Shown piece after piece: positions 3,964-23,753 of a DNA stretch of 48,150 nucleotides. Within the stretch, counting starts at the first letter, position 1; every line of letters starts with the position of its first letter. The stretch spans positions 1 through 48,150 of the forward strand of contig CASEDF010000010.1 of the NCBI GenBank assembly GCA_949286705.1, given 5' to 3'. This DNA comes from an uncultured bacterium. Its GTDB lineage: Bacteria > Cyanobacteriota > Vampirovibrionia > Gastranaerophilales > Gastranaerophilaceae. The notes under the pieces were generated by a model. It made no database searches. It worked only from the letters and a program-made list of their open reading frames with translations, and was not told where the DNA came from. The position numbers and the translations under genes are program-made.

Positions 3964-4521
3964 TTATTGTTGTTGATAATCTTTTATGAGTTTGTCAAGT
4001 GTCGGACGGCTGATATTTAATTCTTTTGCAAGCTCTGATTTGCTTATTTCTCTCGAAATATATCTTTGATAATGTTTATCAAAATCCGGGATTGATACAG
4101 CTTTACGCCCTTTATATTTACCTTCACGCTTTGCAATGGCTATGCCCTCTTTTTGTCTCTCTAATAGGTTTGTACGCTCAAATTCGTTAATTGCTCCTAT
4201 CATTGTAAGCATTAACTTTCCTGTTGGTGTGCTGCTGTCAATGTTTTCTTTGTTGCTTATTAGTGTAATTCCTTTACTGTTTAGTAGTTCCACAATGTCA
4301 AGTAAATCTTTTGTTGACCGTGCAAGCCTTGAAAAGTCGTGTATATGTATTGTGTCGCCCTCTCTTGCAAAGTCAAGCATTTCTTTTAATTTTGGGCGGT
4401 TTGTGTCTTTGCCTGATACCTTTTCTATGAACCACTTTTCTATATTGTACCGCTGCATAGCTTCAATTTGTCGCTGCTCGTTCTGGTCTATGCTTGACAC
4501 TCTAATATAAGCTATTTGCAT
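3964..4521 (-). CDS. Serine resolvase/invertase family recombinase, 185 aa
   Basis: This is a small serine recombinase of the Tn3-resolvase/Hin class. The catalytic domain begins IAYIRVSSIDQNEQRQ, with the nucleophile Ser9. It continues with the DFSRLARSTKDLL region that carries catalytic arginines and with TPTGKLMLTMIGAINEFER on the dimer helix. A C-terminal HTH (ISKSELAKELNISRPTLDKL) binds DNA. Length matches the family. A run of TGTAAA/TTTACA inverted repeats directly upstream (4538-4605) looks like its res/operator site. On this element it could resolve multimers or invert DNA. The element already has a tyrosine integrase, so this enzyme is unlikely to be the integrase. Confidence 0.92.
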   Translation of the reverse strand: MQIAYIRVSSIDQNEQRQIEAMQRYNIEKWFIEKVSGKDTNRPKLKEMLDFAREGDTIHIHDFSRLARSTKDLLDIVELLNSKGITLISNKENIDSSTPTGKLMLTMIGAINEFERTNLLERQKEGIAIAKREGKYKGRKAVSIPDFDKHYQRYISREISKSELAKELNISRPTLDKLIKDYQQQ

Positions 4522-4537: not shown

Positions 4538-4605
4538 TGTAAATTTAATATTATAATGTGCTTTACAAAATGTAAAATAAATGTTTTTATAATTCTATTT
4601 TTACA
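4538..4605. promoter_or_regulatory. res-like recombination/operator site
   Basis: Two adjacent imperfect palindromic subsites are framed by TGTAAA...TTTACA: 4538-4567 (30 bp) and 4571-4605 (35 bp). Their junction forms a 15-bp palindrome (4562-4576). A further TGTAAA half-site is at 4626-4631. Subsites of ~28 and ~34 bp with unequal spacers, upstream of a resolvase gene and overlapping its promoter, match the organisation of Tn3/gamma-delta res sites. The repeats are observed; resolvase binding is inferred. Confidence 0.55.
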
Positions 4606-4674
4606 ATTATATTATACCATCTAAATGTAAAAATAAAGTACACTCTATATTTAATGAGAATATGGCGGTATATT

Positions 4675-6461: not shown

Positions 6462-6567
6462 ATTGTATCACTTAATTCAGTGATATTCAATAGGCAAATG
6501 TCACAAAGTTAAGAGATGTTATTTGTGCAATATGTCACTTGATTAAGAGATGTTTATGTGATATAAT
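6462..6567. promoter_or_regulatory. Divergent phage-like control region
   Basis: Leftward promoter: TTGAAT (6485-6490, minus), 17-bp spacer, TACAAT (6462-6467). A palindrome TATCAC-8-GTGATA (6466-6485) fills its spacer. Rightward promoter: TTGATT (6539-6544), 17-bp spacer, TATAAT (6562-6567). Two direct repeats of ATGTCAC followed by TTAAGAGATGT start at 6498 and 6532, and the second overlaps the rightward -35. This is the layout of a repressor-controlled switch. The likely ligands are the Xre protein encoded at 6634 or the one at 589-882. Confidence 0.65.
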
Positions 6568-7556: not shown

Positions 7557-7565
7557 AAATATATC

Positions 7566-7705
7566 CATAAAGAGTGTACGAGGGAGCAAGACCGTTGACT
7601 ACACAGCAACCTGCATTTGCAAGGTGCTACTGCTTGACCGATGGAATATATGACAAAAAACTATTCCCATCGGAAACGATGGGAATTTTTTCTGCACTCT
7701 TTATG
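7566..7705 (+). ncRNA. Structured leader with S-box (SAM-I clan)-like core and terminator
   Basis: An 11-bp outer stem pairs CATAAAGAGTG (7566-7576) with CACTCTTTATG (7695-7705). Inside are GAGGGA (7580-7585), AGCAACC (7605-7611) and AGGTGCT (7622-7628), in the order and spacing of P2/P3 of SAM-I-type riboswitches. CAAG and CTTG can close P2. Downstream, CCGATGG (7638-7644) can pair with CCATCGG (7667-7673), which is also the 5' arm of a terminator hairpin (7664-7692), giving mutually exclusive structures. The outer 3' strand lying beyond the terminator is unusual. The RNA switch class is inferred; other ligands are possible. Confidence 0.55.
7664..7692 (+). terminator. Intrinsic terminator in the leader (expression platform)
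   Basis: A 9-bp stem TTCCCATCG/CGATGGGAA with a GAAA tetraloop is followed by six T. It lies between the consensus promoter and the 7731 gene, so it would stop the transcript unless its 5' arm is captured by CCGATGG at 7638-7644. Confidence 0.8.
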
Positions 7706-8048: not shown

Positions 8049-8579
8049 ACCAGAACACCGAACACAAGCCGAAAATTGACCTGTATTGCGTTTTTATAGT
8101 TTATTAGTATAAGTTTACCTTTTGAGTAAAAATGCGATATAGGCTAAATAAAGCGATATTTACATTATCGTAATTATGCATCAGTTTATTATCAATTCCG
8201 GCAGCGGTTTAGTAAAGACAATTCCTAATTTTATCAATTCAATAATAGTATTATTCAAATAAAGATAAACCTATTTGTGTATTATTACTATGCGATTAAC
8301 CATAGAGAAGCAAATGAGTTTATCACATACAATTTCTTATTTATATATAATATAATAATATATATAAGAGTCGTATTAAATAAGGAATTGTATGTAAATC
8401 AATACTATTCTTAATTTCTATAAGAATAATGAATAGTATATAAGTAATACTATACATAAAGGTGTATTATTTCTGTATGGAAATTCCGAATATCAAACTA
8501 TTGGTTACTATTGACATAGTTCCAATCTATGTTGCGATATAAATTTATTGATATTATACAATATTTTTGATTTTTACTA
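8049..8579. other. Non-coding block left of the second leader
   Basis: There is no gene with a ribosome site in this 530-bp AT-rich stretch. It holds a 12-bp hairpin with two G-U pairs (8083-8094 with 8136-8147), possibly ending the upstream transcript. It also holds the repeat module described at 8211-8460. Confidence 0.5.
8211..8460 (+). repeat. AT-rich non-coding module, copy A
   Basis: This is homologous in inverted orientation to 12722-12975. Shared blocks in the same order are: AAAGACAATTC, CCTATTT, ATTAACCA, ACAATT.CTTATTTA, TAAATAAGGAATTGTAT and a 20-bp identical block containing CAATACTATTCTTAATT. The two ACAATT/AATTGT blocks form an inverted repeat within the copy. ATACTATTC and GAATAGTAT form a second one. 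Coding potential is absent, so conservation suggests a DNA or RNA function such as an origin or protein-binding array. Confidence 0.7.
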
Positions 8580-8608
8580 TTGACAAATCAAAAAAGAAAT
8601 GTTATAAT
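8580..8608 (+). promoter_or_regulatory. Consensus promoter of the second structured leader
   Basis: TTGACA (8580-8585), a 17-bp spacer and perfect TATAAT (8603-8608). It drives a leader of about 220 bases before the small gene at 8837. Confidence 0.8.
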
Positions 8609-8668
8609 AAAGAAAATTAAATCAATCTTAACCGCAATGTGCGGGCGATTTCCTTGTTTAATAAATTT

Positions 8669-8797
8669 AAAGGCTATGCTTGATTGAATATAGGATTAGT
8701 CGATGTAATTCGGCTAATAAAAAAAATCCTAATTATAGTAAATCATTTACTATAAATGGATTGACCTGTATTCATTTCTGCATAGCCTTTTTTTGCG
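8669..8797 (+). ncRNA. Multi-helix structured RNA leader, unknown class
   Basis: An 11-bp closing stem (AAAGGCTATGC 8669-8679 with GCATAGCCTTT 8780-8790) is followed by TTTT, so it can serve as a terminator. Inside it are three helices. P2 is TAGGAT...ATCCTA with TAGTCGA/TCGGCTA nested on top (8691-8731). P3 is TATAGTAAA/TTTACTATA (8734-8754). P4 is AATG/CATT (8755-8776). A CCGC/GCGG hairpin precedes it near 8632. The layout is a four-way junction. It does not match a riboswitch class I can name; a regulatory leader or stable small RNA are both possible. Confidence 0.55.
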
Positions 8798-8836
8798 TTT
8801 ATGCGGAAAATTTCAAAAAGAAAGGATGTATAAGCA

Positions 8837-9010
8837 ATGACAGAAAGAACACTACAAAACAGAATGAAAAACGAGGGTTACAGATTGAGAAAAGAACGTG
8901 ATGCCGCAGGTATGATAGGATTTCAGATTATAGACTTTAACAACATTATTGTAGCTGGCGAACACTTTGAGCTGGATTTCTATGATGTTATTGATTTTCT
9001 GAATAAATAA
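8837..9010 (+). CDS. Small protein downstream of structured leader, 57 aa
   Basis: The product starts MTERTLQNRMKNEGYRLRKE, a basic helix. It then has a beta strand (GMIGFQIIDFNNIIVAG) and an acidic C-terminal helix (FELDFYDVIDFLNK). Tiny proteins of this kind are frequent in Firmicutes phages and ICEs and have no known function. AAAGGA precedes the ATG. It is the only gene directly behind the four-way-junction leader, which probably regulates it. Confidence 0.7.
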   Translation: MTERTLQNRMKNEGYRLRKERDAAGMIGFQIIDFNNIIVAGEHFELDFYDVIDFLNK

Positions 9011-9083
9011 GCGTGTATTTTAGTTGACTCAATTTATATTTCCAAAAATTCAAATGTTAAATTTTCACAAAGGAGCAAACGAA

Positions 9084-9161
9084 ATGAACGGAAAAAGTCA
9101 AATGATTATAATATCCACTATTATTGTTGTGGAACTAATAGGAAGTGCAAATTATGCCTGA
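9084..9161 (+). CDS. 25-aa hydrophobic peptide coupled to the next gene
   Basis: The peptide is basically one hydrophobic helix (SQMIIISTIIVVELIGS) that could span a membrane. It has an excellent ribosome site (AAAGGAG, 7 bases upstream of ATG). Its stop TGA (9159-9161) overlaps the start of the zinc-finger gene (ATG 9154), so the two are translationally coupled. It may be a functional micro-protein or simply a leader peptide that loads ribosomes for the next gene. Confidence 0.55.
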   Translation: MNGKSQMIIISTIIVVELIGSANYA

Positions 9162-9801
9162 TATTAGCTTTAGGACTACTTGCAAAGATTGTAAATTTAA
9201 TGGTAGATGTTTGCTTGCCGGAAACAATCGAATGATTAAGAAACGATGCTATATTGATTCTGTAACAGAAAAATTAAAAATTAAACAAGAAACAGTTGTT
9301 GAAAGATGTAATACAGTTTTGCAAAAATACGGCATATGGAATTTTTCTTTTATAGAAACCATTGATAAAGATTACTGGTTGAGTATGAGTAACAGTCAAA
9401 GATTAACATATATTAGGTTTAACCTTGATTACTATGCCGATAGAGAAAATACAATCATAACAAATGATGATATTAAGATATTATACGCAGTGGCAAACTG
9501 CTATTTTTCAGCTTGGCGAGATGATGAATACATACACTGTGCAAAATGTGGGGATTTGATTAAAAACAGCAAACAACGAAATCGTAAATATTGTGAAAAG
9601 TGCAAAGTCAATAACCGAAAAACTAATAATCAATCCGAAATCTTAAAGACCTGTATTGACTGTGGTGTAAAATTCTATCCCGATAGTAATAGAGAAATTC
9701 GGTGTATATATTGTCAAATCAAGGCTAACAAAGCATCTGCAAGAGAGCGAGCAAGACGATACAGAGAAAGAAAGCGTAACGGTTTAGAAAGCAAAAGTTA
9801 A
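9154..9801 (+). CDS. Multi-zinc-finger protein, 215 aa
   Basis: Three Cys clusters are visible. The N-terminal one has CKDCKFNGRC and a Cys ten residues on. A central pair (CAKCGDLIKNSKQRNRKYC, then CEKC) makes a ribbon. A C-terminal ribbon has CIDCGVKFYP and CIYC. The protein ends in a very basic Arg-rich helix (ARERARRYRERKRNG) suited to nucleic-acid binding. A DNA- or RNA-binding role is likely. ATG 9154 is taken over GTG 9145 because AGGAAG sits 8 bases before it. Translation is coupled to the 25-aa peptide. Confidence 0.75.
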   Translation: MPDISFRTTCKDCKFNGRCLLAGNNRMIKKRCYIDSVTEKLKIKQETVVERCNTVLQKYGIWNFSFIETIDKDYWLSMSNSQRLTYIRFNLDYYADRENTIITNDDIKILYAVANCYFSAWRDDEYIHCAKCGDLIKNSKQRNRKYCEKCKVNNRKTNNQSEILKTCIDCGVKFYPDSNREIRCIYCQIKANKASARERARRYRERKRNGLESKS

Positions 9802-9865
9802 AGACATAAAACCGTAAAAATGGCTATAATATAGGCTTTTTTTGAAAACTCCTTTTTTCGTTAAT

Positions 9866-9933
9866 GAAGGGAGATAGAGAAAACTAAAAATCTCGCTCTA
9901 AAATCGGACATAAATTGAAATATATCTCCCTTC
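9866..9933 (+). ncRNA. Long-stem leader hairpin
   Basis: A perfect 11-bp stem (GAAGGGAGATA 9866-9876 with TATCTCCCTTC 9923-9933) closes a 46-base loop that contains TAGAG/CTCTA. It lies before the 10005 HTH gene. This is the third outer stem of 11 bp before a small gene in this region. An RNA function is inferred. Confidence 0.4.
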
Positions 9934-10004
9934 TATTCTATTATTTTTTTATCAACAGTTCAATAAATTTATTAAACTGCAAAATACCGAACAAGGAGGA
10001 TAAT

Positions 10005-10184
10005 ATGGATTTAATCAAAAGAAGTCAGAATATGATTGATGAATTAGGCATATCAATCACCGCATTTTGCCGAAAAAATGGAATAAGCACGTCTTATTTT
10101 TATTATGTTAAAAACGGAAAAATGGATTTTTCATCAGAAGTTGCAGAGCGACTAAACAAATATTTAAGTAAATATGGATTTTAA
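10005..10184 (+). CDS. Mini HTH protein, 59 aa
   Basis: The entire protein is one HTH domain of Cro/CI type (IDELGISITAFCRKNGIS, then TSYFYYVKNGKMDFSSEVAE), lacking any extra domain. It may be an antirepressor, Cro-like switch or architectural protein. ATG 10005 is chosen since AAGGAGG lies 5-6 bases upstream; upstream in-frame codons have no such site. It is followed 46 bp later by the HNH endonuclease gene on the same strand. Confidence 0.75.
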   Translation: MDLIKRSQNMIDELGISITAFCRKNGISTSYFYYVKNGKMDFSSEVAERLNKYLSKYGF

Positions 10185-10230
10185 CACTTTATATCCAAAC
10201 AACTAAATGTAAATGAAAGGAATATCAAAA

Positions 10231-11112
10231 ATGCAAAACAAAGCAAATAATTTAATCAAAGTAAAAGAGGCTGCCGAATACTTAATAAGCACAGAATTCG
10301 AAAATGCAGACAAAAAAGATGCTCAATACAAATTGGCATTAAAAAGAGCAAAAGCAAGAATTTACACTGCAATTAAAAAGCATCAGTTAGATATTTTTGG
10401 AGAAACAACTATATTGTTAAATAGGAATCAGGTTAAAGATTTCAAGGACGGAAAAATAACTGCAAGAAGTATGTATTCTCCATTCGGAAATATGGAACTT
10501 GACTTTGATGAGTCTGTTAAATTCATCGAAAGTTTCCATAATCCAAACAGCATTAAAGAACCGCTAAAATATAAGACCAGATGCCAATATGGAGTTACAA
10601 ACAAAGGCAGAGTGCTTGATTTAACATATCGCAGAGTATTAAGCCAAAATAAAGCGGCTCACGATTATAAGCAGGTGAGCATAAGAGCAAATAATAAATC
10701 ATTCCCGGAAAGAACGCACGTACTGGTTGCTTTCGCCTGGTGCCAAAACGGAAAGCTTAAAAATGAGGTGCATCACATTGACGGAGATATTTTCAATAAT
10801 AATTCCCTAAATTTAGTGTGGGTTACGCACTCCGAACATCTCAAAGCTCACAAATTGTTAGAAGAAGCAAAAGTAAATAATGACTTCACGGAATACAATA
10901 ACTATATTGATGAGATACGTAAAGATAACAAATGGGAAGAAGAATACCGCTGTGTAGCCTTTGAAAAAGATAATGCTACTATCTTCGCGTGGATTACTAA
11001 AAAGGCATATACAGACTATAAGAACGGCACAAGAACATTGGACGAAATTTATTATGATGAGGTAAAAACTGAAAGGATAGTAAGAAAATGCCCGACAGAG
11101 AAACAAGTTTAA
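10231..11112 (+). CDS. HNH homing-type endonuclease, 293 aa
   Basis: The C-terminal half contains an HNH_3 nuclease core: HVLVAFAWCQNG, then EVHHIDGDIFNNNSLNLVWV and THSEHLKAH. HH and N ligate the metal at about residues 181-205. In front is a NUMOD-like beta segment (YGVTNKGRVLDLTYRR). The N-terminal ~100 residues include an HTH-like region (LIKVKEAAEYLI) that could recognise DNA. ATG 10231 has AAAGG 10 bases upstream. Single HNH genes of this type act as free-standing homing nucleases in phages or as element-encoded DNA-processing enzymes. Its 3' end overlaps the DUF5659 start (TAATG). Confidence 0.85.
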   Translation: MQNKANNLIKVKEAAEYLISTEFENADKKDAQYKLALKRAKARIYTAIKKHQLDIFGETTILLNRNQVKDFKDGKITARSMYSPFGNMELDFDESVKFIESFHNPNSIKEPLKYKTRCQYGVTNKGRVLDLTYRRVLSQNKAAHDYKQVSIRANNKSFPERTHVLVAFAWCQNGKLKNEVHHIDGDIFNNNSLNLVWVTHSEHLKAHKLLEEAKVNNDFTEYNNYIDEIRKDNKWEEEYRCVAFEKDNATIFAWITKKAYTDYKNGTRTLDEIYYDEVKTERIVRKCPTEKQV

Positions 11113-11303
11113 TGACGATTTACAGCCAGCGTTTGGCTGGCTATTTAATGCTGCACGGCTTTGTTTTATTGAGATTGCTGCCGAACCAAACCGATAACCG
11201 TAACCGTTTTTTATTTGCGAACACTCCGGCGTTAAGAGATTGTATTGACCGGTGGACTATTGAAAAGCTCAAATCAGATTACGAAAGGAGCAATTCGATA
11301 TAA
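11112..11303 (+). CDS. DUF5659-like protein, 63 aa
   Basis: The product starts MTIYSQRLAGYLMLHGFVLL, the hallmark of DUF5659, and continues to a conserved FLFANTPALRDCIDRW ending. The family is frequent in Firmicutes phages and integrative elements next to DNA-processing genes. Its function is unknown. The ATG at 11112 overlaps the HNH stop as TAATG, giving coupling. An alternative ATG at 11088, with GAAAGGA upstream, would add eight residues. The ATPase gene start overlaps its 3' end. Confidence 0.75.
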   Translation: MTIYSQRLAGYLMLHGFVLLRLLPNQTDNRNRFLFANTPALRDCIDRWTIEKLKSDYERSNSI

Positions 11304-12499
11304 ACAAAGTAATAGTCATTGATTCTATAATGGGCAGCGGAAAAACCACTTGGACTATCAACAACCTGCTGAATCGAAATCTTAATGAAAACATCTTATA
11401 TATTACTCCATATCTGGATGAAGTCAAAAGAATAAAAAACGCAACCGACAGAAAGATGTTTGAACCAGAAAATAAGGGTAGCGGAAAGATAGGCAATATT
11501 GCTAAACTTTTAACTAATCAAATGGATATTGTCAGTACGCACGAGCTATTCCGCCGATTTGATAATAATTGTAAAGCTGCATTACAAGATAATGATTACA
11601 CGCTTATACTGGATGAAACATTAACCGCAGTTGAACCGTACCATTTTACCGGCAAAGATGATTATAAATACCTCCTGCAAAACGGTGATATTAAAGTCAG
11701 TGATGACGGTTTAATTGAATGGGTAGGCTCTGAACTTGATACAAGATTTGACGATGTACGCATATTAGCAACTAATAGATGCCTATTCAAGGTTGATGAC
11801 AAATTTTTTCTCTGGCATTTTCCTCACGCAATTTTTAAGCTATTCAAAAAAGTATATGTGCTTACATACCTTTTTGAAGGCTCTTTAATGAAATATTACT
11901 TTGATTTATACAATATTGAGTACCAAAAGAAAAGTATAAAGTTGGTTGACGGAGAATATACACTTGTGAATTTTTATAATCCTGATAAAATTTCATATAA
12001 AGAGAGAATAAACATATATAATGGAACTCTTAACGAAAACATAAGCCAAAAAGATAATGTACTATCATCAACTTGGTGCAAGAATAACTACAATAAAAAA
12101 GAACTTGTTCAGATACAGAAAAATTTTTACAACTATTGCAGAAACATTGTTAAAACCAACAGTAAATACATAATGTGGACTTCATTTAAAGATTGTAAGC
12201 CGAAACTATCTGGCAAGGGATATACTAATGGCTTTGTTCCTTGTAACTGCCGGGCGACTAACGACCATCGAAATGCAACTTGTTTGATGTATGCTGTGAA
12301 TTGGTATGAAAATCCTGAAATAACTAAATTTTTTAAGCAACACGGAATAACCATAAATCAAAATCAATTAGCATTAGCTACTTTGTTACAGTGGATATGG
12401 CGAAGCAATATTAGGGTAACGGATAGTGAAAAAATAATCAATATATACATTCCGTCAAAGCGAATGAGAAACCTGTTTTTGGAGTGGCTAAATGGTTGA
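11300..12499 (+). CDS. P-loop ATPase/SF2-like protein, ~399 aa
   Basis: Walker A is MGSGKTT, preceded by a hydrophobic strand (NKVIVIDS) that is normal for this fold. Walker B is YTLILDETL, about residue 96. Between them are ILYITPYLDEVKRI and VSTHELFRRF, as in SF2-like phage ATPases of this size. The natural start is probably ATA at 11300, because AAAGGAG sits 9 bases before it and no ATG/GTG/TTG is available upstream of the P-loop. The ATG at 11330 would remove the first strand. It is followed by two terminators. Likely roles are in replication or DNA processing of the element; helicase activity is unproven. Confidence 0.75.
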   Translation: MNKVIVIDSIMGSGKTTWTINNLLNRNLNENILYITPYLDEVKRIKNATDRKMFEPENKGSGKIGNIAKLLTNQMDIVSTHELFRRFDNNCKAALQDNDYTLILDETLTAVEPYHFTGKDDYKYLLQNGDIKVSDDGLIEWVGSELDTRFDDVRILATNRCLFKVDDKFFLWHFPHAIFKLFKKVYVLTYLFEGSLMKYYFDLYNIEYQKKSIKLVDGEYTLVNFYNPDKISYKERINIYNGTLNENISQKDNVLSSTWCKNNYNKKELVQIQKNFYNYCRNIVKTNSKYIMWTSFKDCKPKLSGKGYTNGFVPCNCRATNDHRNATCLMYAVNWYENPEITKFFKQHGITINQNQLALATLLQWIWRSNIRVTDSEKIINIYIPSKRMRNLFLEWLNG

Positions 12500-12522
12500 C
12501 GGAGGCACAACACATTTTTATG

Positions 12523-12577
12523 TTAGCACTTTGAAGGTGCTAAATTTTTCAAAAAATGGCTTATTTAAGCCGTTTTT
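12523..12577 (+). terminator. Tandem terminators after the ATPase gene
   Basis: The first is TTAGCAC/GTGCTAA (12523-12543) followed by ATTTTT. The second is an 11-bp stem AAAAATGGCTT/AAGCCGTTTTT with one G-U pair (12552-12577). Together they end the HNH-DUF5659-ATPase transcript. Confidence 0.8.
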
Positions 12578-12721
12578 GAGGTGTTACCCTTAAAGAGAAA
12601 AATATAAAAAATAGTAGTATTTATCTTCAATTCTTTTTTAAGATTCATTTTGATAATCAACAAATAAAAGAATTGGAGATAAGACTGCCTGTCAAGGCTG
12701 ATAAAATAAATATGATGGGTA

Positions 12722-12975
12722 TATAATTAAGAATAGTATTGATTTATAGTATATAGATTAAGACTATTCTTAATTTTTATACAATTCCTTATTTACTACG
12801 ATTATTATATACTATTTTAAATTATTAAATTAAATAAGTAATTGTACAGTAACCCTATTCACTTTCTCCCGTTGGTTAATAGTAAAATAATAATGTAAAT
12901 AGGCTTACCGAACATAAACATACTTAATACAGTTATGAAATAGGCAAATCAAGAATTGTCTTTAATAATGCGCCA
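12722..12975 (-). repeat. AT-rich non-coding module, copy B (inverted)
   Basis: This is the reverse-complement homologue of 8211-8460. It shares the 20-bp block with GAATAGTATTGATTTA, the ATACAATTCCTTATTTA block, the TTGGTTAAT region and GAATTGTCTTTA, in collinear order. Sequence between blocks has diverged, so it is not a recent duplication. It also contains its own ACAATT/AATTGT inverted pair and an ACTATTCTT hairpin. Confidence 0.7.
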
Positions 12976-13128
12976 CATACGATTGTTTTCGGTAATTTTC
13001 GGTGGGATGAATTATTAACCATTATTAGAGGATTTATTGTCTCAATTTTTCGGAGTCGGAGAAAAATATTTTAATTCACAGAGAGAAAAACATAATTAAA
13101 ACGCCCTATTTTAAGCAAAGGAGGACAA

Positions 13129-14378: not shown

Positions 14379-14396
14379 GTAAAGGAAGTGATAACA

Positions 14397-17300
14397 ATGA
14401 GCGAATTTAAGGCAAAGATTATTGCCGAGCTTGATACATCAAAAGTAGAACAGCAAATAAATGATTTGAATGGTAAAAAAGTAAAATTTGATGTTGATAC
14501 TGGTAACACACAGAAAAATATAAATAGCATCGGTAATTCAATCAAATCAACAGCTAAAACGGCATCTTCTTTTAGTGAAACATTGAAGAAATCCTTAAAT
14601 ATTGGTGCGGCGGCAACGATAGCACGAGAAGGATTTCAACTTATCAGAACAGCTGCAAATAATGCCATAGAGTCAATTAAGGACTTAAATGGTGAAATAG
14701 TTGATTTGCAGATGGCAACAAGACAAAGTTATAACCAGGTATCAAAACTTGTTGGTGACTATAATGAAATGGCTAAATCATTAGGAGCGACTACAACACA
14801 AGTGACGGATGCAGCTGATTCTTGGTTAAGGCAAGGTAATTCATTGAGTGATACAAATACGCTTATTAGAGATTCAATGATTTTATCGAAAGTCGGTCAG
14901 CTTGATTCTGCCGCTGCAACTCAATATCTTACATCTTCAATGAAAGGCTATAAAGTTGCCGCAGACGATGCACTGGGTATTGTTGATAAATTAACAGCCG
15001 TTGACCTTGAGTCTGCAACAAATGCCGGTGGACTTGCAGAGGCTATGTCAGAGGTGGCAGTAACAGCAAGTAACGCAGGTGTTTCAATGGATAAACTGTT
15101 GGGATATTTAGCAGCAACCGGAGAAGTAACACAAGAAAGTATGTCAACCATCGGAACATCATTCAAGACGATTTTTACAAGAATGTCTGACATTAAGTCT
15201 GGTAAACTTGAATTGATTGATGAAGATGGCACTACTGAAATCTTATCAGATGTTGAACAGACACTTGCAAATGTCGGTATTGATTTAAGAAAAACAGTCA
15301 CTGAATACAATAATTACGGGGATGTACTTGATAATCTTGCGGCTAAATGGGATTCGTTAAGTCAAGTTCAACAAAATGCTTTAGCAAAGGCTTTTGCAGG
15401 AACAAGACAGCAAAATAGATTCCGTGTTTTAATGGAAAACTATGATAATGCCAAAAAGTATATGGATGTTGCGGCAAATTCAGCAGGTACAGCAGAAAGC
15501 AAATTTTCAGCATATTTAGATAGTGTTGAATCGAAAATCAATTCTCTGCAAGCAGCATTTGAATCATTAGTTTTCAACAGCTCAATGACAGAAATATACA
15601 GCGGTATTGTCGAAGCCTCTACTGCTGTTTTGGAGTTCCTGGATAACACCAAACTTTTGCAAGGAGCTTTAGCAGGATTAGCAACTGCCGGGGCTGTTGA
15701 AGGGCTGAAAGCGTTAGTTTCCGGAATTCAAAATTCAGCTACACAGATGAGTAATTTTGGTAATGCTTTAACTCTATTAAGTTCTGGAAGCCAAGTTATG
15801 GGTGATGATTTTCAAGACTTATTGTTAATGACAGAGAATCTATCTCAAAGTCAATTAAAAGCAGTGTTATCATCCGAAGCATTGAGTACAGAACAAAGAA
15901 TTGCTATATTGACCTCACAGGGAATGACCACTGCACAGGCAGAAGCTGCACTATCTTCAATGGGATTGGCAACTGCTGAAGGTGCTGCAACAGCATCAAC
16001 CGTTACATTAGCAAGTGCAGTTAAAGGATTATGGGCTACACTTATGGCTAATCCATTATTGCTAATTGTTGCCGCTGTGACAGCAGGAACAATGGCTATC
16101 AGTGCATTAGCCAGTGCAGCCAGAGAAGCCTCCGAAGCTGCCGATGAATTCAAGCAATCTGCAATGGAAGAAGCACAGGCAGCAAGAGAAGAAGTTCAAA
16201 CATTAGATGAACTTATTGCCAAATACAAAGAACTTGCTGAAAGTGATACACAGGATGCTGGAACAAGAGAAGAAATCAAGAGCATTCAAAGTGAAATCAC
16301 AGATTTAGTTGGCAATCAGGCAGATAATCTTGATTTAGTAAACGGCAAATTGGATGAAGAAATTGCTAAACTTAATCAAATCAGGAAAGACGAAGCCGAT
16401 AAAGCAGTTGATAAAGCAACAACCGCATATCACGCCGCAAAAGATTCTCACGATAAAGCAATGGGTCAAGATTCAGCATTATGGATTGATGGATATGCTT
16501 ATGTTAGTGAAGATTGGTGGAGTAATGAAGATGAAATAATAGATATTCTTCAAAATAATGGTTTTGAGAATTCTGTTCAAAAAGGTGGAATAGCCAATTC
16601 TCATACATTCATAATGGATTCTATGGATGAAAATATGAATATGTTAGAGGGTGCTACCGAAAAAGCAGAATACTTAAAAAGAATGATTGCTGTTATTGAA
16701 GAAAACTATTCAGACTATGCATCAAGTGATATTTGGAATGCACTCAATAAACAAGTTGAAGCATATGAACAATATGCAAATGATATGAAAAAGACGGCAA
16801 AAGACCTTGCCGAAGCTGAAATTCTATCTTCTACATATGATGAATCGCTTTCTAAAATAAATGTTAATTCTCTTGATAATTATTCAGAATATAGAGATAA
16901 ACTTATTGATTTAGTTAAGAATAGCCCTAATTTATCAGAAGCAATAAGTTCAGGAGACTTAACAGAAAATGATATTGCAGGACAAGTTGATAATTATTTA
17001 GCAACAATTCCAAAATATTCAGAATACTATAATCAATTTTCTAAATTAGAAGAACAGAAAAAGAAAATTGCGAATGTTAAGAAAGAGTTTGCTGATTCTG
17101 ACTGGGTTCAAGATTCGAGTTGGGGTATTGCTGAACAAAGAATTAACGATTTCAATGATTGGTTTGATAATTTATCTGATGAAGATAAAGAAATTGTTTA
17201 TGATATTTCTTGCAAAACTGATACTGCAAAATTTAATTTAGAAGATTGGCAAAATGCACTTGAAAATTATAATTCATACACAAAGCAAACTGCCGATGAA

Positions 17301-20300
17301 ATTGAGAGCAATTTAACCAGAGCAGCAGAAAGTACAAAAACTCTTGTTTCTGGAATTTCTTCTGCACAGGATATTTTATCTTCTCAAACAACCGGCACAT
17401 CTTTATCTATTGAAGATTTTAATTCGGAAGAATTAGAGGACTATCGTTCTGCTCTTGAATATACCAACGGCACAATGCAGCTTAATGCTGAAAAAGTTAA
17501 TGAAATTGTAAAAGCAAAATCACAGGAACAGATTGAGATTAACAATACAAACAAAGCAATGGCTCAATCTACATATCTTGATAATGCCGCACAAATAGAA
17601 AAACTTCGTCAGAAAATTAAGGATAAAAACTTTGCTGAAGGTGAAAGTGAAGAATCAATCCAAAATAATATTGATGCTTTGCTTGAAGAAAACGGAGCAA
17701 TTAAATTAAATTGCGATGCCTATGATTTAATGAACGCTTCACTTCAAGAAGCAACTGATGCTTATCATAATTGGCTCAATGCTCAAAATGCTGCTCAAAG
17801 CGGAGATATGTTTGATGATACACTTGATGCTATAAATCGTATCAATGAAACATTAAATGATACTGATTCAGAATATTATGGTAGAGTTGGTAGAACCGAT
17901 TATAAAGCTGCTCTTAATTTAATCATACCTGATTCCGTCAATTCGGAAGATGAAGCAAAGGTAAATGCTTACTTAAAGAGCATTTATGATATGTTTACAT
18001 ATGATGATGACGGTAATCGTGCCGGATTAAATATAGAGAATTTCTGTCAGAAAGCAGTAGATAAGGGCTTAATGGTTCTTGATGAATCAACAGACTCTTA
18101 TCAAATTGCTGGTCAAAAAACAATGGAAGATTTCGCCAAAGGAATGAACCTTTCTCTCCCACTTGTTCAGGCTATGTTCGGAGAAATGGAAGAATTCGGT
18201 GGTGAATTTTCTTGGGCTGATGAAGCTGTAAAAACCATTGGAGATTTAGGCGTTGCCGCAAATGAATCAGCAGAAGCATTGCGAAAAATCAAAGGTAATG
18301 AAGATTTAGCTATTAAACTTGATGTTTCTGAAATTGAGGGTACTGATGATAAAATTTCAACATTAGAAGCCACAATTAAAGAAATGCAGAATGTTAAAGG
18401 AAAAGCAAAAGTAGATGCTTCCGAAGTTGAGTATGCAAATCAAATTATTGAATATTGTGTTGCTCAACAGCAAAATCTTTCTGCTCCGATTGTAATGTCA
18501 GTTGATACTTCGGCAATTAGTGAAAAGAATGCCGAAGCAATAGAGCAAATTCAAGAATTCAAGAGAGCTTGTAACGATTTAGAGTTAAAGCAAAAACTTG
18601 GAGTTGATACTTCCGATGCACAAAGCAAGGTTAATACTCTTGCAACAGATATTAAAAATATTGACCCTAAAATCGCAGCAGAATTAAGCCTCGATACTTC
18701 ATCTGTTGAAAATCTTAAAACGAGTATAAATAATATTACTGGTGAACAGTTAGTTAAGATTGGAATAGATGATAGTGCAATTATTGGTTGGACGGCAGAT
18801 AATAAAACTGCAAAAGTAACTTATGATGTCGATTCAACTGCCGTTGATACTTACAAAAAGCAAGATGATAGTAAAACTGCAACAGTAACATATCATAAGA
18901 TTTCAACAGAAGTTGACCAATATAATCCATCTAACTTATCAAGAACGGTTACATACCATATTAAAACAGAGGGTTCTGTTGGAGTAAATGGAACAGCAAA
19001 TGTTACCGGTACTGCTATGGCAGGTGGTAATTGGGGTGCTAAAAGAGGTGGAAACACTCTTGTTGGTGAACTCGGCAGAGAAATCGTTGTTGACCCACAT
19101 ACAGGAAGATGGTACACGGTTGGAGATACTGGAGCAGAATTTGTTGATATTCCAAAAGGTTCTATTGTATTCAATCATAAACAAACAGAATCTTTATTGG
19201 CAAATGGTTATGTTGCTGGTAGAGCCTCTGCTCTTGTTAATGGTACTGCTATGGTTACTGGTGGTATTAAGCGTAATAATGCTCAAACAAGTACCAAATC
19301 AGGTGGTAATTCAACAAGTAATTACGGAAAATCTTCAAGTAGCAAATCTTCATCAAGTAGTTCAAAATCATCTTCAAAAAGTTCCGAAGAAGAAAAAGAA
19401 CCGCAAATTTTCGACTGGATTGAAATTGCTTTAAGCCGTATTCAAAGAGCAATAGATAATCTTTCAAAGAAAGCCGAAAGCACTTTTAAGAAATTATCTA
19501 CAAGACTTTCAGCAACAAATAAGGAGATTAGCAAAGTCAATGAGGAAATAAACCTTCAGCAAAAAGCGGCAGATAGATATATGAAAGAAGCCAATAATGT
19601 TGGTTTATCATCTGCTCTTGCTAAAAAGGTTAGAGAAGGAACTATTGACATCAATGAATACGATGAAGATACACAAAAGTTAATACAAGATTATCAAAAT
19701 TGGTATGAAAAAGCTCTTGAATGTAAGGATGCTATTGCAGACTTGCACGAGGAATTGGCTTCATTATATGAAGATAATTTTAACAATGTCAAAGATGATT
19801 ATGAAAATCAGTTAAGTCTTTATGAACATTTAACTAATACCTACGAAACAGGTATTGATTTGCTCGATGCTAAAGGTTATATGGCAAGCACCAAATATTA
19901 TGCAGCAATGCAGAGTGTTGAAAAAAAAAATATTTCAATAAGAAAAAAGGAACTTGCCGACCTTGAAAAACAGTTTTCTGCTGCTATGAACTCTGGAGAA
20001 ATCGAAAAGTATTCAGAGGCGTGGTACTCAATGCAAGCCGAAATAAATGGTGTTAAAGAAGCCATTGCAGAATCAGAAGTTAATCTTGCAGAATTTGCAA
20101 AGACTATGCGTGAAATTGAATGGGAACGATTTGATTATATTCAGGAACGCATTGAGAATATTACCCAAGAGGCTGATTTCTTAATTGACATTATGAGCAG
20201 TAAAGACCTCTATGATGATAAAGGTCAGCTCAATAATGAAGGTATGGCTACAATGGGCTTACACGGTCAGAATTATAATGTCTATATGGCACAGGCTGAC

Positions 20301-21791
20301 CAGTATGCACAAGAAATTCTTGACATCAATGAACAGATTGCAAAAGACCCATATAATACTGAATTGATTGCTCGTAGAGAAGAACTGCTCGGATTACAGC
20401 AAGACTCTATAAAGGCAGCAGAGGATGAAAAACAAGCCATCGTTGATATGGTTGAGGAAGGTATTAGCCGTGAACTTGATGCTCTTAAAGAGTTGATAGG
20501 TACATATACAGATGCTTTGGATAGTGCAAAGAATTTGTATGACTATCAAAACAAAGTGTCTGAAAAAGCCGATGAAATTGCTTCGTTGCAGAAACAATTA
20601 TCTGCATATAAAGGTGATAATTCAGAAGAAACAAGAGCAACTATTCAAAAGTTAGAAGTTGACCTTTCTAAAGCCCAAGAGGACTTGGCAAAGACAGAGT
20701 ACGACCAGTTTATTACTGACCAGAAAAAGTTGCTTGATGAACTTTATACAGAATATGAGGACATATTAAATCAGCGTTTAGATGATGTGGATGCTTTAAT
20801 TAGTGATATGATTGACCAAATCAATTTGAATGCTGATAGTATAAATGATACGCTCGTTACAACTGCCGATAGTGTTGGTTATACAATGTCTGATAATATG
20901 CAAAGAATTTGGGATGGTTCTACTAATGCTCTTGATGGTGTAATTACAAAATATGGTGACAAATTCGATTCACAATTTACATCCGTAAATTCTGTTTTGA
21001 ATTCAATTTCGGTTGCAGTTGCTTCTATGGTTAGCGAAAGTGATAATCAAGCGGCTGAAACAGTTAAGGACACAACAACTACAACTGAACCATCAAAACC
21101 TGCCGACACTCCAAAGCCGACTAAACCTGCCGCTACTCCAAAGCCGACTAAACCTGCTGAAAAGAAAGTAACGATTGGTGGCAAGATAAACGCTAAAGGT
21201 GCAAAGATTTATTCAAACTCTTATGGTGGCGGAAAGCAAAATCAATATTTTGCAAGTGACCCTATTTATACTGTACTCGGTGAAAACAACGGTTATTGGA
21301 AAGTTCGTTATCATAAGTTATCCAGTGGTGTTACTGGTTGGTTTAAGAAAGGCGATGTTAAGGCATATAAGACAGGTGGACTTGTAGATTATACCGGATT
21401 AGCACAACTTGATGGCACTCCCGGAAAGCCTGAATTGGTTCTTAATTCAAAAGATACAGATAACTTTATTAGATTAAGAGATGCTTTGCGTGCTATGGCA
21501 TCACAACCATTAACAATTGGTGAAAGTTATGCAGTTAGCAATATATTACCGACTGTTACAGGAATCACAGATGTGAGTAATATGATTTCAAAAATATCTG
21601 CTACTCCGACAATATCGCAAAATAATAATGTAACATTCGGAGACATTAAAATTGACCACGTTGAAGATTATAATGATTTTGTGACACAGTTACAGAGAGA
21701 CCCGAAGTTTGAGCGAATGATACAAGCGATGACAACCGACATTCTCAATGGTGGTAGTTCTCTTTCAAAGTATAAATATCATTGGAAATAA
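14397..21791 (+). CDS. Giant phage tape-measure-like protein with SH3-like domain, 2464 aa
   Basis: The N-terminal ~430 residues match TP901-type tail tape-measure proteins (DLNGEIVDLQMATRQSYNQV, then ALAKAFAGTRQQNR). A hydrophobic stretch (PLLLIVAAVTAGTMAISAL) lies near 550. Around 1554-1607 are the tape-measure signatures GELGREIVVDP, WYTVGDTGAEFV and PKGSIVFNHKQTE. A Ser/Lys linker (~1650) and long coiled coils follow. A Pro-Thr-Lys repeat (~2231-2257), an SH3-like domain (~2258-2326) and the family's terminal LNGGSSLSKYKYHW end complete it. ATG 14397 has AAAGGAAG upstream. In phages this protein sets tail length and passes through the envelope during DNA entry. Here no other virion gene accompanies it, so its role is open. 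Confidence 0.93.
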   Translation: MSEFKAKIIAELDTSKVEQQINDLNGKKVKFDVDTGNTQKNINSIGNSIKSTAKTASSFSETLKKSLNIGAAATIAREGFQLIRTAANNAIESIKDLNGEIVDLQMATRQSYNQVSKLVGDYNEMAKSLGATTTQVTDAADSWLRQGNSLSDTNTLIRDSMILSKVGQLDSAAATQYLTSSMKGYKVAADDALGIVDKLTAVDLESATNAGGLAEAMSEVAVTASNAGVSMDKLLGYLAATGEVTQESMSTIGTSFKTIFTRMSDIKSGKLELIDEDGTTEILSDVEQTLANVGIDLRKTVTEYNNYGDVLDNLAAKWDSLSQVQQNALAKAFAGTRQQNRFRVLMENYDNAKKYMDVAANSAGTAESKFSAYLDSVESKINSLQAAFESLVFNSSMTEIYSGIVEASTAVLEFLDNTKLLQGALAGLATAGAVEGLKALVSGIQNSATQMSNFGNALTLLSSGSQVMGDDFQDLLLMTENLSQSQLKAVLSSEALSTEQRIAILTSQGMTTAQAEAALSSMGLATAEGAATASTVTLASAVKGLWATLMANPLLLIVAAVTAGTMAISALASAAREASEAADEFKQSAMEEAQAAREEVQTLDELIAKYKELAESDTQDAGTREEIKSIQSEITDLVGNQADNLDLVNGKLDEEIAKLNQIRKDEADKAVDKATTAYHAAKDSHDKAMGQDSALWIDGYAYVSEDWWSNEDEIIDILQNNGFENSVQKGGIANSHTFIMDSMDENMNMLEGATEKAEYLKRMIAVIEENYSDYASSDIWNALNKQVEAYEQYANDMKKTAKDLAEAEILSSTYDESLSKINVNSLDNYSEYRDKLIDLVKNSPNLSEAISSGDLTENDIAGQVDNYLATIPKYSEYYNQFSKLEEQKKKIANVKKEFADSDWVQDSSWGIAEQRINDFNDWFDNLSDEDKEIVYDISCKTDTAKFNLEDWQNALENYNSYTKQTADEIESNLTRAAESTKTLVSGISSAQDILSSQTTGTSLSIEDFNSEELEDYRSALEYTNGTMQLNAEKVNEIVKAKSQEQIEINNTNKAMAQSTYLDNAAQIEKLRQKIKDKNFAEGESEESIQNNIDALLEENGAIKLNCDAYDLMNASLQEATDAYHNWLNAQNAAQSGDMFDDTLDAINRINETLNDTDSEYYGRVGRTDYKAALNLIIPDSVNSEDEAKVNAYLKSIYDMFTYDDDGNRAGLNIENFCQKAVDKGLMVLDESTDSYQIAGQKTMEDFAKGMNLSLPLVQAMFGEMEEFGGEFSWADEAVKTIGDLGVAANESAEALRKIKGNEDLAIKLDVSEIEGTDDKISTLEATIKEMQNVKGKAKVDASEVEYANQIIEYCVAQQQNLSAPIVMSVDTSAISEKNAEAIEQIQEFKRACNDLELKQKLGVDTSDAQSKVNTLATDIKNIDPKIAAELSLDTSSVENLKTSINNITGEQLVKIGIDDSAIIGWTADNKTAKVTYDVDSTAVDTYKKQDDSKTATVTYHKISTEVDQYNPSNLSRTVTYHIKTEGSVGVNGTANVTGTAMAGGNWGAKRGGNTLVGELGREIVVDPHTGRWYTVGDTGAEFVDIPKGSIVFNHKQTESLLANGYVAGRASALVNGTAMVTGGIKRNNAQTSTKSGGNSTSNYGKSSSSKSSSSSSKSSSKSSEEEKEPQIFDWIEIALSRIQRAIDNLSKKAESTFKKLSTRLSATNKEISKVNEEINLQQKAADRYMKEANNVGLSSALAKKVREGTIDINEYDEDTQKLIQDYQNWYEKALECKDAIADLHEELASLYEDNFNNVKDDYENQLSLYEHLTNTYETGIDLLDAKGYMASTKYYAAMQSVEKKNISIRKKELADLEKQFSAAMNSGEIEKYSEAWYSMQAEINGVKEAIAESEVNLAEFAKTMREIEWERFDYIQERIENITQEADFLIDIMSSKDLYDDKGQLNNEGMATMGLHGQNYNVYMAQADQYAQEILDINEQIAKDPYNTELIARREELLGLQQDSIKAAEDEKQAIVDMVEEGISRELDALKELIGTYTDALDSAKNLYDYQNKVSEKADEIASLQKQLSAYKGDNSEETRATIQKLEVDLSKAQEDLAKTEYDQFITDQKKLLDELYTEYEDILNQRLDDVDALISDMIDQINLNADSINDTLVTTADSVGYTMSDNMQRIWDGSTNALDGVITKYGDKFDSQFTSVNSVLNSISVAVASMVSESDNQAAETVKDTTTTTEPSKPADTPKPTKPAATPKPTKPAEKKVTIGGKINAKGAKIYSNSYGGGKQNQYFASDPIYTVLGENNGYWKVRYHKLSSGVTGWFKKGDVKAYKTGGLVDYTGLAQLDGTPGKPELVLNSKDTDNFIRLRDALRAMASQPLTIGESYAVSNILPTVTGITDVSNMISKISATPTISQNNNVTFGDIKIDHVEDYNDFVTQLQRDPKFERMIQAMTTDILNGGSSLSKYKYHWK

Positions 21792-22350: not shown

Positions 22351-22430
22351 AAAACATTATTTATTAAGTCGGCTAAATCTGCTATAATAAATGTGGATAT
22401 AGCTGGCTGTTGGGAAAGGAGCAGAAAAAC

Positions 22431-23609
22431 TTGAAGAAAAAGCGAAATATAACAGGCAGCATTCAAATCAAAAACGGTAAATGGTGGGTAGTTGTAAATC
22501 TCTATGATGAGAACGGAAAGCGAAAGCCAAAATGGATTGATACAAAGTTATCCGAAAGAGGAAATAAGCGTAAGGCTGAAAAATTGTTATCTGACTATTT
22601 GTCAGAATACAATAAAATGAATATTCCGTATTCAAAATTGACGGTTGCAGATTACTTTGAACAGTGGCTTGATGATATTAAATCAGAGGTAAAAACAAAT
22701 ACATATCGTTCTTATTTTGGAAATATGACAAATCACATTATACCTTATTTCAAACAAAATAAAATACAGTTGCAGGAATTGACACCGTTTGATTTAGAGG
22801 AATATTACAAATTCAAATTGCAACCAAACAGCAAAATCAATTCAGGTGAAGCATTATCTGCAACAACAATCAAACATCATCATCAAAATATCAGTAAGGC
22901 ATTAGCAGATGCAGTAAGAAAAGGTTTAATTATGGCTAACCCTGCTACAAGTGCAAAAACACCTAAAGCAGAAAAATTCAAGGGCGAATTTTTAAATCAA
23001 AAACAAGTAAATGAAATGCTTGTATTGTTTAGAGGCTCTGTAATTGAATTACCTGTGTTTCTGTGTTCTGTTTACGGTTTTCGCAGAAGTGAAGTTTTAG
23101 GTTTGAAATGGCATAATATAGATTTTGAGAGCAAATCTATAACCATAGCTGAAACTTTGCAGCAAAGCATAGGTGGAAATTACACTGATACGCCAAAAAC
23201 CGAAAGTAGTTACAGAACATTGCCGATGACCAATGAAGTCTATACTGCTTTAATTACAGCAAAAAGCCTTCAGGAAGAACGCAAGCAGTTAATGGGGAAC
23301 TATTATATCTTAAATGATTATGTTTGTACTTGGCAAAATGGAAATGTAATATCTCCAAATTACTTAACAAGGACTTTTAAGAGTGTTATAACTAAAAGTA
23401 ATTTGCCTAATATTCGTTTACACGATTTAAGGCATAGTGCAGCGAGTAATTTGTTAGATATGGGATTTTCAGTTGTGCAAGTATCTGATTGGCTCGGTCA
23501 TAGTAGTTCGGCAACGACATTAAATTTTTATGCTCACGCTGAAAAACGCTCAAAAATGGATATTGCAAACGCTCTTGAGTCTGCATTTCAAACACAAAGT
23601 GATAGATAA
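22431..23609 (+). CDS. int: Tyrosine integrase, 392 aa
   Basis: The N-terminal AP2-like arm-binding domain (GSIQIKNGKWWVVVNL) is followed by a SAM-like core-binding domain (LTVADYFEQWLDDIKSE) and a C-terminal catalytic domain. The active residues are visible: Arg in YGFRRSEVLGL, the H-x-x-R pair in LHDLRHSAAS, His in WLGHSS, and the nucleophile Tyr in LNFYAHA. TTG 22431 is chosen as start because AAAGGAG sits 9 bases before. It belongs to the Tn916/phage type. It lies next to attR and is expected to recombine the 45-bp tRNA-Trp core. The stop codon overlaps the first right arm repeat. Confidence 0.96.
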   Translation: MKKKRNITGSIQIKNGKWWVVVNLYDENGKRKPKWIDTKLSERGNKRKAEKLLSDYLSEYNKMNIPYSKLTVADYFEQWLDDIKSEVKTNTYRSYFGNMTNHIIPYFKQNKIQLQELTPFDLEEYYKFKLQPNSKINSGEALSATTIKHHHQNISKALADAVRKGLIMANPATSAKTPKAEKFKGEFLNQKQVNEMLVLFRGSVIELPVFLCSVYGFRRSEVLGLKWHNIDFESKSITIAETLQQSIGGNYTDTPKTESSYRTLPMTNEVYTALITAKSLQEERKQLMGNYYILNDYVCTWQNGNVISPNYLTRTFKSVITKSNLPNIRLHDLRHSAASNLLDMGFSVVQVSDWLGHSSSATTLNFYAHAEKRSKMDIANALESAFQTQSDR

Positions 23610-23708: not shown

Positions 23709-23753
23709 TGGCAGGGGCAGAAGGGATCGAACCCTCGACACGCGGTTTTGGAG
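23709..23753. repeat. attR: 45-bp direct repeat inside tRNA-Trp
   Basis: This is identical to 253-297. Because the element supplies the same 45 bases, the tRNA gene at this end stays complete after integration. Confidence 0.92.

Follow-up and report, generated by a model that had tools for sequence, protein, structure and literature searches.

Paired inverted AT-rich modules as a candidate origin-like cis element of an integrative element

Two non-coding modules of about 250 bp flank, in inverted orientation, the central genes of a mobile element in the 48,150-nucleotide stretch of DNA analysed here (the window), and this raises the question of what role such a pair could serve. Module 1, the left copy (8209-8453, + strand), is extremely AT-rich; module 2, the right copy (12722-12975, - strand), is inverted with respect to it, and the gene-proximal ends of both point toward each other. 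Local alignment of 8160-8480 with the reverse complement of 12700-13000 gave a score of 116, compared to 28.6 ± 4.2 (maximum 49) for 1000 dinucleotide-preserving shuffles, a difference of 20 s.d. The aligned core pairs 8209-8439 with the reverse complement of 12733-12968, which bears out the claim of the first-pass annotation that blocks of the two modules occur in the same order, reverse-complemented. In the direct orientation the pair scored only 48, and elsewhere in the window, module 2 excepted, 301-base pieces scored 37 at most. The signal also survived outside the identical block shared by the modules (8395-8416, equal to the reverse complement of 12725-12746), as a score of 94 remained after this block was masked; the refuting outcome named in the first-pass annotation, a score no better than that of shuffled sequence outside the block, therefore did not occur. 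The block had been described as 20 bp long and collinear with its surroundings. The identity holds, but the length is 22 bp, and since module 2 carries two tandem repeats (12725-12746 and 12754-12775), of which the second, 12725-12746, is the identical one, the identical pair is not the collinear pair. Neither module contains an ORF of at least 60 aa, in agreement with the earlier view that they lack coding potential.

Short matches are common at low GC, and many weak AT-rich matches were seen in other genomes, as would be expected if a chance likeness of AT-rich sequence explained the pair. The excess over dinucleotide shuffles and the identical box pair and spacing in four module-bearing genomes (below) leave this explanation a negligible probability, and we count it as already refuted. 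The two copies are 69% identical over aligned columns, so that about 30% of positions differ. This is close to their divergence from the module of another genome, G422 (68% identity to module 1, 78% to module 2), indicating that the window copies are not a recent duplication.

Judged from its sequence, each module looks like a set of candidate protein-binding boxes in very AT-rich non-coding DNA; module matches have a GC content of 11-16%. From the outside to the inside, the order is an outer box, a first inverted repeat (IR1), a second inverted repeat (IR2) and then one or two ACTATTCTTAAT repeats. The outer box, with the consensus GACAATTC(C/T)T(A/G)ATTT, reads GACAATTCCTAATTT in module 1 (8217-8231, +) and AAATCAAGAATTGTC on the + strand in module 2 (12946-12960, feature on the - strand). 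IR1 is an inverted repeat of the GATAAACCTATTTG type, found at 8264-8324 (+) in module 1, where the arms are GATAAACCTATTTG / CAAATGAGTTTATC, and at 12849-12908 (-) in module 2; its loop carries a conserved ATTAACCA. The core of the module, IR2, has 16-bp arms (TACAATTnCTTATTTA / TAAATAAGnAATTGTA) that are invariant except at position n, and a spacer of 33-35 nt that is A/T apart from a few G/C, with TCGTA adjoining one arm. In module 1, IR2 spans 8328-8392 (+), with inverted boxes at 8328-8343 and 8377-8392 and a 33-nt AT-rich spacer ending in TCGTAT, and in module 2 it spans 12780-12846 (-), with boxes at 12780-12795 and 12831-12846 and a 35-nt AT-rich spacer. The innermost part is the repeat TAAATCAATACTATTCTTAATT at 8395-8416 (+) in module 1 and the tandem ACTATTCTTAAT-type repeats at 12725-12775 (-) in module 2. 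Outside the modules, no TACAATTnCTTATTTA box was found in the 48-kb window at up to 2 mismatches. When folded as single-stranded DNA, the adjacent inverted repeats fell well below shuffles (z -2.8 to -6.8).

Both modules lie inside a 23.5-kb integrative element, the ends of which are marked by 44-bp direct (att) repeats at 254-297 (-, far end) and 23710-23753 (-). The element is integrated in the 3' end of tRNA-Trp, where the second repeat adjoins a tyrosine integrase (22410-23609). Its cargo comprises a tape-measure-like protein, a serine recombinase, HTH proteins, a DnaJ-like protein and small genes. The tape-measure-like protein (14388-21791) is 2467 aa long; no capsid or terminase genes were recognised in the 23.5-kb element, which is possibly a satellite or a tail-interacting element. 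The serine recombinase (3964-4521) is of the invertase type (phrog_125, E 1.2e-65), and a 17-bp dyad just upstream of it (4596-4635), unrelated to the modules, may be its own site. The mobile element also holds a SAM riboswitch match (7562-7647, +; RF00162, 46.4 bits for a gathering threshold of 44.4), which is followed by a terminator-like hairpin and then a 106-aa ORF with no assigned function.

The segment of about 4.5 kb between the modules carries Zn-ribbon, small HTH, HNH, DUF5659 and YonV-family genes. The Zn-ribbon protein (9145-9801, +) has a basic C-terminal tail and is also encoded near the modules of two further genomes, G423 and G424, and, as a weaker match, of G422. The small HTH protein (10005-10184, +), with a weak Cro/C1-type HTH match, is kept in G423 and G424, and the HNH endonuclease (10213-11112, +) varies among related elements. 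The YonV-family (phrog_2467) protein (11300-12499, +) resembles its family over its full length (E 4e-68 over residues 2-398) and is 40-43% identical to SPbeta-group homologues. Its predicted structure (pLDDT 89.7) has an SF2 helicase fold, in which Walker A, DE and Q..R motifs are present, and the best fold matches are DinG/XPD (Z 17.2, rmsd 4.7 over 334 residues); UL9-type helicases were not among the listed fold matches, so that DinG/XPD is the more probable assignment and a UL9 type the less probable one. Translation of this gene probably begins at ATA (11300) rather than at an ATG, because this is where its homologues begin, and a start at the ATG at 11330 would lose the strand before Walker A.

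We then scanned 84,980 species genomes for exact matches to the two inverted boxes separated by 20-50 nt. Three further contigs (G422, G423 and G424) were recovered, each with one detectable module, and the comparative set consists of five module sequences from four genomes, the window included. Box starts in IR2 lie 51 bp apart in window module 2 and 49 bp apart in the other four modules, and each box pair covers 65-67 bp in all. Both the AT-rich core of the spacer and the TCGTA beside one box are conserved among the modules. G423 and G424 are clear relatives of the window element. G424 is nearly complete and has collinear genes (tape measure 92% and integrase 88% identical); its single module lies at the right-hand site and is oriented like window module 2, while at the left site the promoter region is kept, module 1 is missing and other genes are present, among them one with a Fic-type HPFREGNGR motif as read from its sequence. 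In G423 the left module is 95% identical and the Zn-ribbon, HTH and HNH genes are present; the YonV gene and the right module were not detected. G422 has DnaJ-like, Zn-ribbon and HTH genes in common with the window element, and its module is oriented opposite to the window left copy, relative to nearby cassette genes.

Other searches added no copies. BLAST of module 1 against 383 family genomes gave weak AT-rich noise besides the window, and a sequence model of the module found the window alone among 382 class genomes. No module was found in viral contigs, either by three box patterns or by YonV, Zn-ribbon, DnaJ-like and integrase searches, and phage and plasmid collections yielded no convincing one. 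The G424 module is bracketed by high-identity direct repeats of about 70 bp (L031, 5259-5327 and 5670-5737), which hints that modules were gained or moved as cassettes. In the same genome, a second integrase (57% identical) beyond the far att end suggests tandem integration. A possible CRISPR-repeat-like stretch in the G424 flank was dropped, as no further copy turned up in four genomes.

The first-pass annotation had also proposed that the modules could invert the segment between them. That they are recombination sites or terminal inverted repeats for inverting or transposing the 4.5-kb segment would fit two similar sequences in inverted orientation in an element that encodes an invertase-type serine recombinase. 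The relatives argue otherwise. The count of copies in related elements that the annotation suggested gave one detectable copy each in G422, G423 and G424 and two in the window, with the single copies found in either orientation. In none of the relatives were the intervening genes seen inverted, and G424 agrees with the window in the order and direction of its genes. Sites that work only as a pair, whether for inversion or as transposon ends, are disfavoured by the single copies and by the constancy of gene order. Moreover, serine-recombinase crossover sites are compact, unlike the span of the box pair; the segment has no transposase; and the sequence difference between the window copies also counts against inversion. 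We consider such a role very improbable. The link that had been drawn to the ATPase gene is likewise not general: no YonV homologue was found in G422, G423 or G424, and 35 sampled YonV-family loci lack such a module. Few of these loci have an inverted repeat above z 4 and none is module-like, the strong repeats being partly of the SPBRE type, and the tie to the YonV ATPase was abandoned.

SPBREs, the operators of MrpR in SPbeta, provide a further candidate role. The modules could be operator arrays for an element-encoded regulator, with looping between the two inverted copies as a possible means of joint repression. SPbeta has AT-rich repeats, also inverted and a similar 4.5-4.6 kb apart, on either side of yonP..yonX around yonV, and MrpR ChAP peaks were reported at SPBREs in the yonP, yonT and yonX promoters (PMC10516654); the window element, for its part, encodes several HTH proteins. 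The SPbeta repeats, AT-rich, inverted and flanking the yonV neighbourhood, thus resemble the modules, but SPBRE copies, 15-bp operators in promoters, are scattered across the prophage (PMC10516654), whereas the window modules are multi-box and about 250 bp long. A set of the SPBRE type would place one site in many promoters of the element, but in the window the boxes were found within the modules and in none of the other intergenic regions of the element. The SPbeta repeats were dropped as an instance of the same architecture, being MrpR operators (PMC10516654). In addition, the central cassette has a perfect sigma-70 consensus promoter (TTGACA-17-TATAAT, 8580-8608, +) outside module 1, and its region is kept in G424 without the module. 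Persistence of the promoter region without the module, together with the confinement of the boxes to the modules, disfavours a promoter or operator role for the cassette, and we regard operator arrays as a possible but fairly unlikely explanation.

A structured RNA transcribed from each module would account for the strong folding of both inverted repeats. However, the one variable position of the 16-bp arms is unpaired in 2/5 modules, U-G in 2/5 and A-U in 1/5, shuffles do equally well in 289/500 cases, and the GC content is low. Module 1 had no Rfam match at E≤1, and a search of the whole window at the gathering threshold gave no match in the modules. Because the variable box position does not covary, protein sites in double-stranded DNA are favoured over RNA, which appears improbable. 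Dense boxes with strict spacing would also suit another cis-acting DNA site, such as a centromere-like partition site, a helper-phage packaging signal or a transfer origin, and a mobile element with a tape-measure-like protein and no recognised capsid or terminase may be a satellite that needs one. Yet the scanned proteins included no recognisable ParA/ParB, terminase or relaxase, and packaging or transfer sites do not usually come in two copies; we judge a site of this kind to be decidedly unlikely.

We tentatively favour, at slightly below an even chance, an origin-like cis element that is present here in two copies and is most likely the replication origin of the element after excision. The orientation and position of the module relative to genes vary between the window, G424 and G422, which favours an origin over a promoter. 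The plan expected of an origin is visible in the inverted initiator-type boxes with conserved spacing and in the adjacent AT-rich candidate unwinding region. Of the conserved DNA or RNA role first suggested for the modules, the part concerning a DNA origin or initiator sites gains support from boxes and spacing kept in three other genomes, while recombination is not supported. We infer that element-encoded, helper or host initiators would bind at the inverted pair of TAAATAAGnAATTGTA boxes, at the arms of IR1 and at the ACTATTCTTAAT repeats and cooperatively distort the AT-rich spacer, which would then melt and admit a helicase. The window element has two inverted module copies, and a single copy seems sufficient in relatives.

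Several observations weigh against an origin. The scan of element proteins revealed no recognisable Rep, primase or initiator, and the sole helicase-like gene, that of the YonV-like protein, is absent from the three relatives. A GC-skew switch, typical of origins though not universal, was not seen at the modules: the cumulative minimum of the element, at 6478, coincides with neither of them (8.2 and 12.7 kb). The comparison includes five module sequences only, and AT-rich inverted repeats can serve many DNA-binding proteins. Near modules, the recurring proteins are only the unassigned Zn-ribbon and HTH ones. A more specific proposal, which we consider unlikely, is a new type of origin of a satellite-like element that bears a tape-measure gene, with an initiator unlike known Reps, for example the cassette Zn-ribbon or small HTH protein, and mirror copies that communicate to control firing.

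The satellite phage P4 has two separated origin regions, ori1 and crr, a few kb apart. The window element is similarly an integrative element of satellite size whose two origin-like repeat regions are separated by a few kb, but no alpha-type primase-helicase was recognised in it, its modules mirror each other and its relatives have one. By analogy, the module plan of inverted boxes, easily melted spacer and repeats matches many origins, including HSV OriS, with inverted OBP boxes around an AT-rich spacer (PMC12543377), archaeal origins, in which an AT-rich region is flanked by ORBs (PMC4010727), and the origin of the satellite PLE, where repeats hold inverted sub-repeats (PMC7145576). The likeness to HSV OriS and UL9 (PMC12543377) extends to a further outer box, the potential to form hairpins, the presence of several inverted copies in one genome and, in the window, an SF2-fold protein encoded nearby. 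The boxes are unrelated to those of OriS, however, and the likeness is one of plan only; unlike UL9, the window SF2 protein is closest in fold to DinG/XPD and is absent from the other module-bearing genomes. Like the PLE origin with its RepA (PMC7145576), the modules have repeats that themselves contain inverted repeats and lie in the non-coding DNA of a possible phage satellite, but no RepA_N protein was recognised in the window element.

Two more distant phage contigs with the DnaJ-like gene, L135 and L136, also carry dense AT-rich inverted repeats in long intergenic regions. On the 143.8-kb contig of L135, such repeats (about 119,065-119,169) and the GC-skew minimum (116,876) are about 2.2 kb apart; genes also switch orientation there, and the proximity is only a hint of an origin. 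The same contig encodes a 932-aa phage protein (2231-5029, -) with a DKDGD-like motif and a possible resemblance to the YonO-type single-chain RNA polymerase; the neighbours of its gene are a Zn-ribbon homologue and a nested, AT-rich inverted repeat.

The analysis provides a compact cis element, together with a comparative set, for a poorly described family of integrative elements of Ruminococcus-type Clostridia. Should the modules prove to be an origin that no recognised initiator serves, a new initiator type might be encoded among the cassette genes, and the mirror-image pair would offer a natural example of dual origins within a small element.
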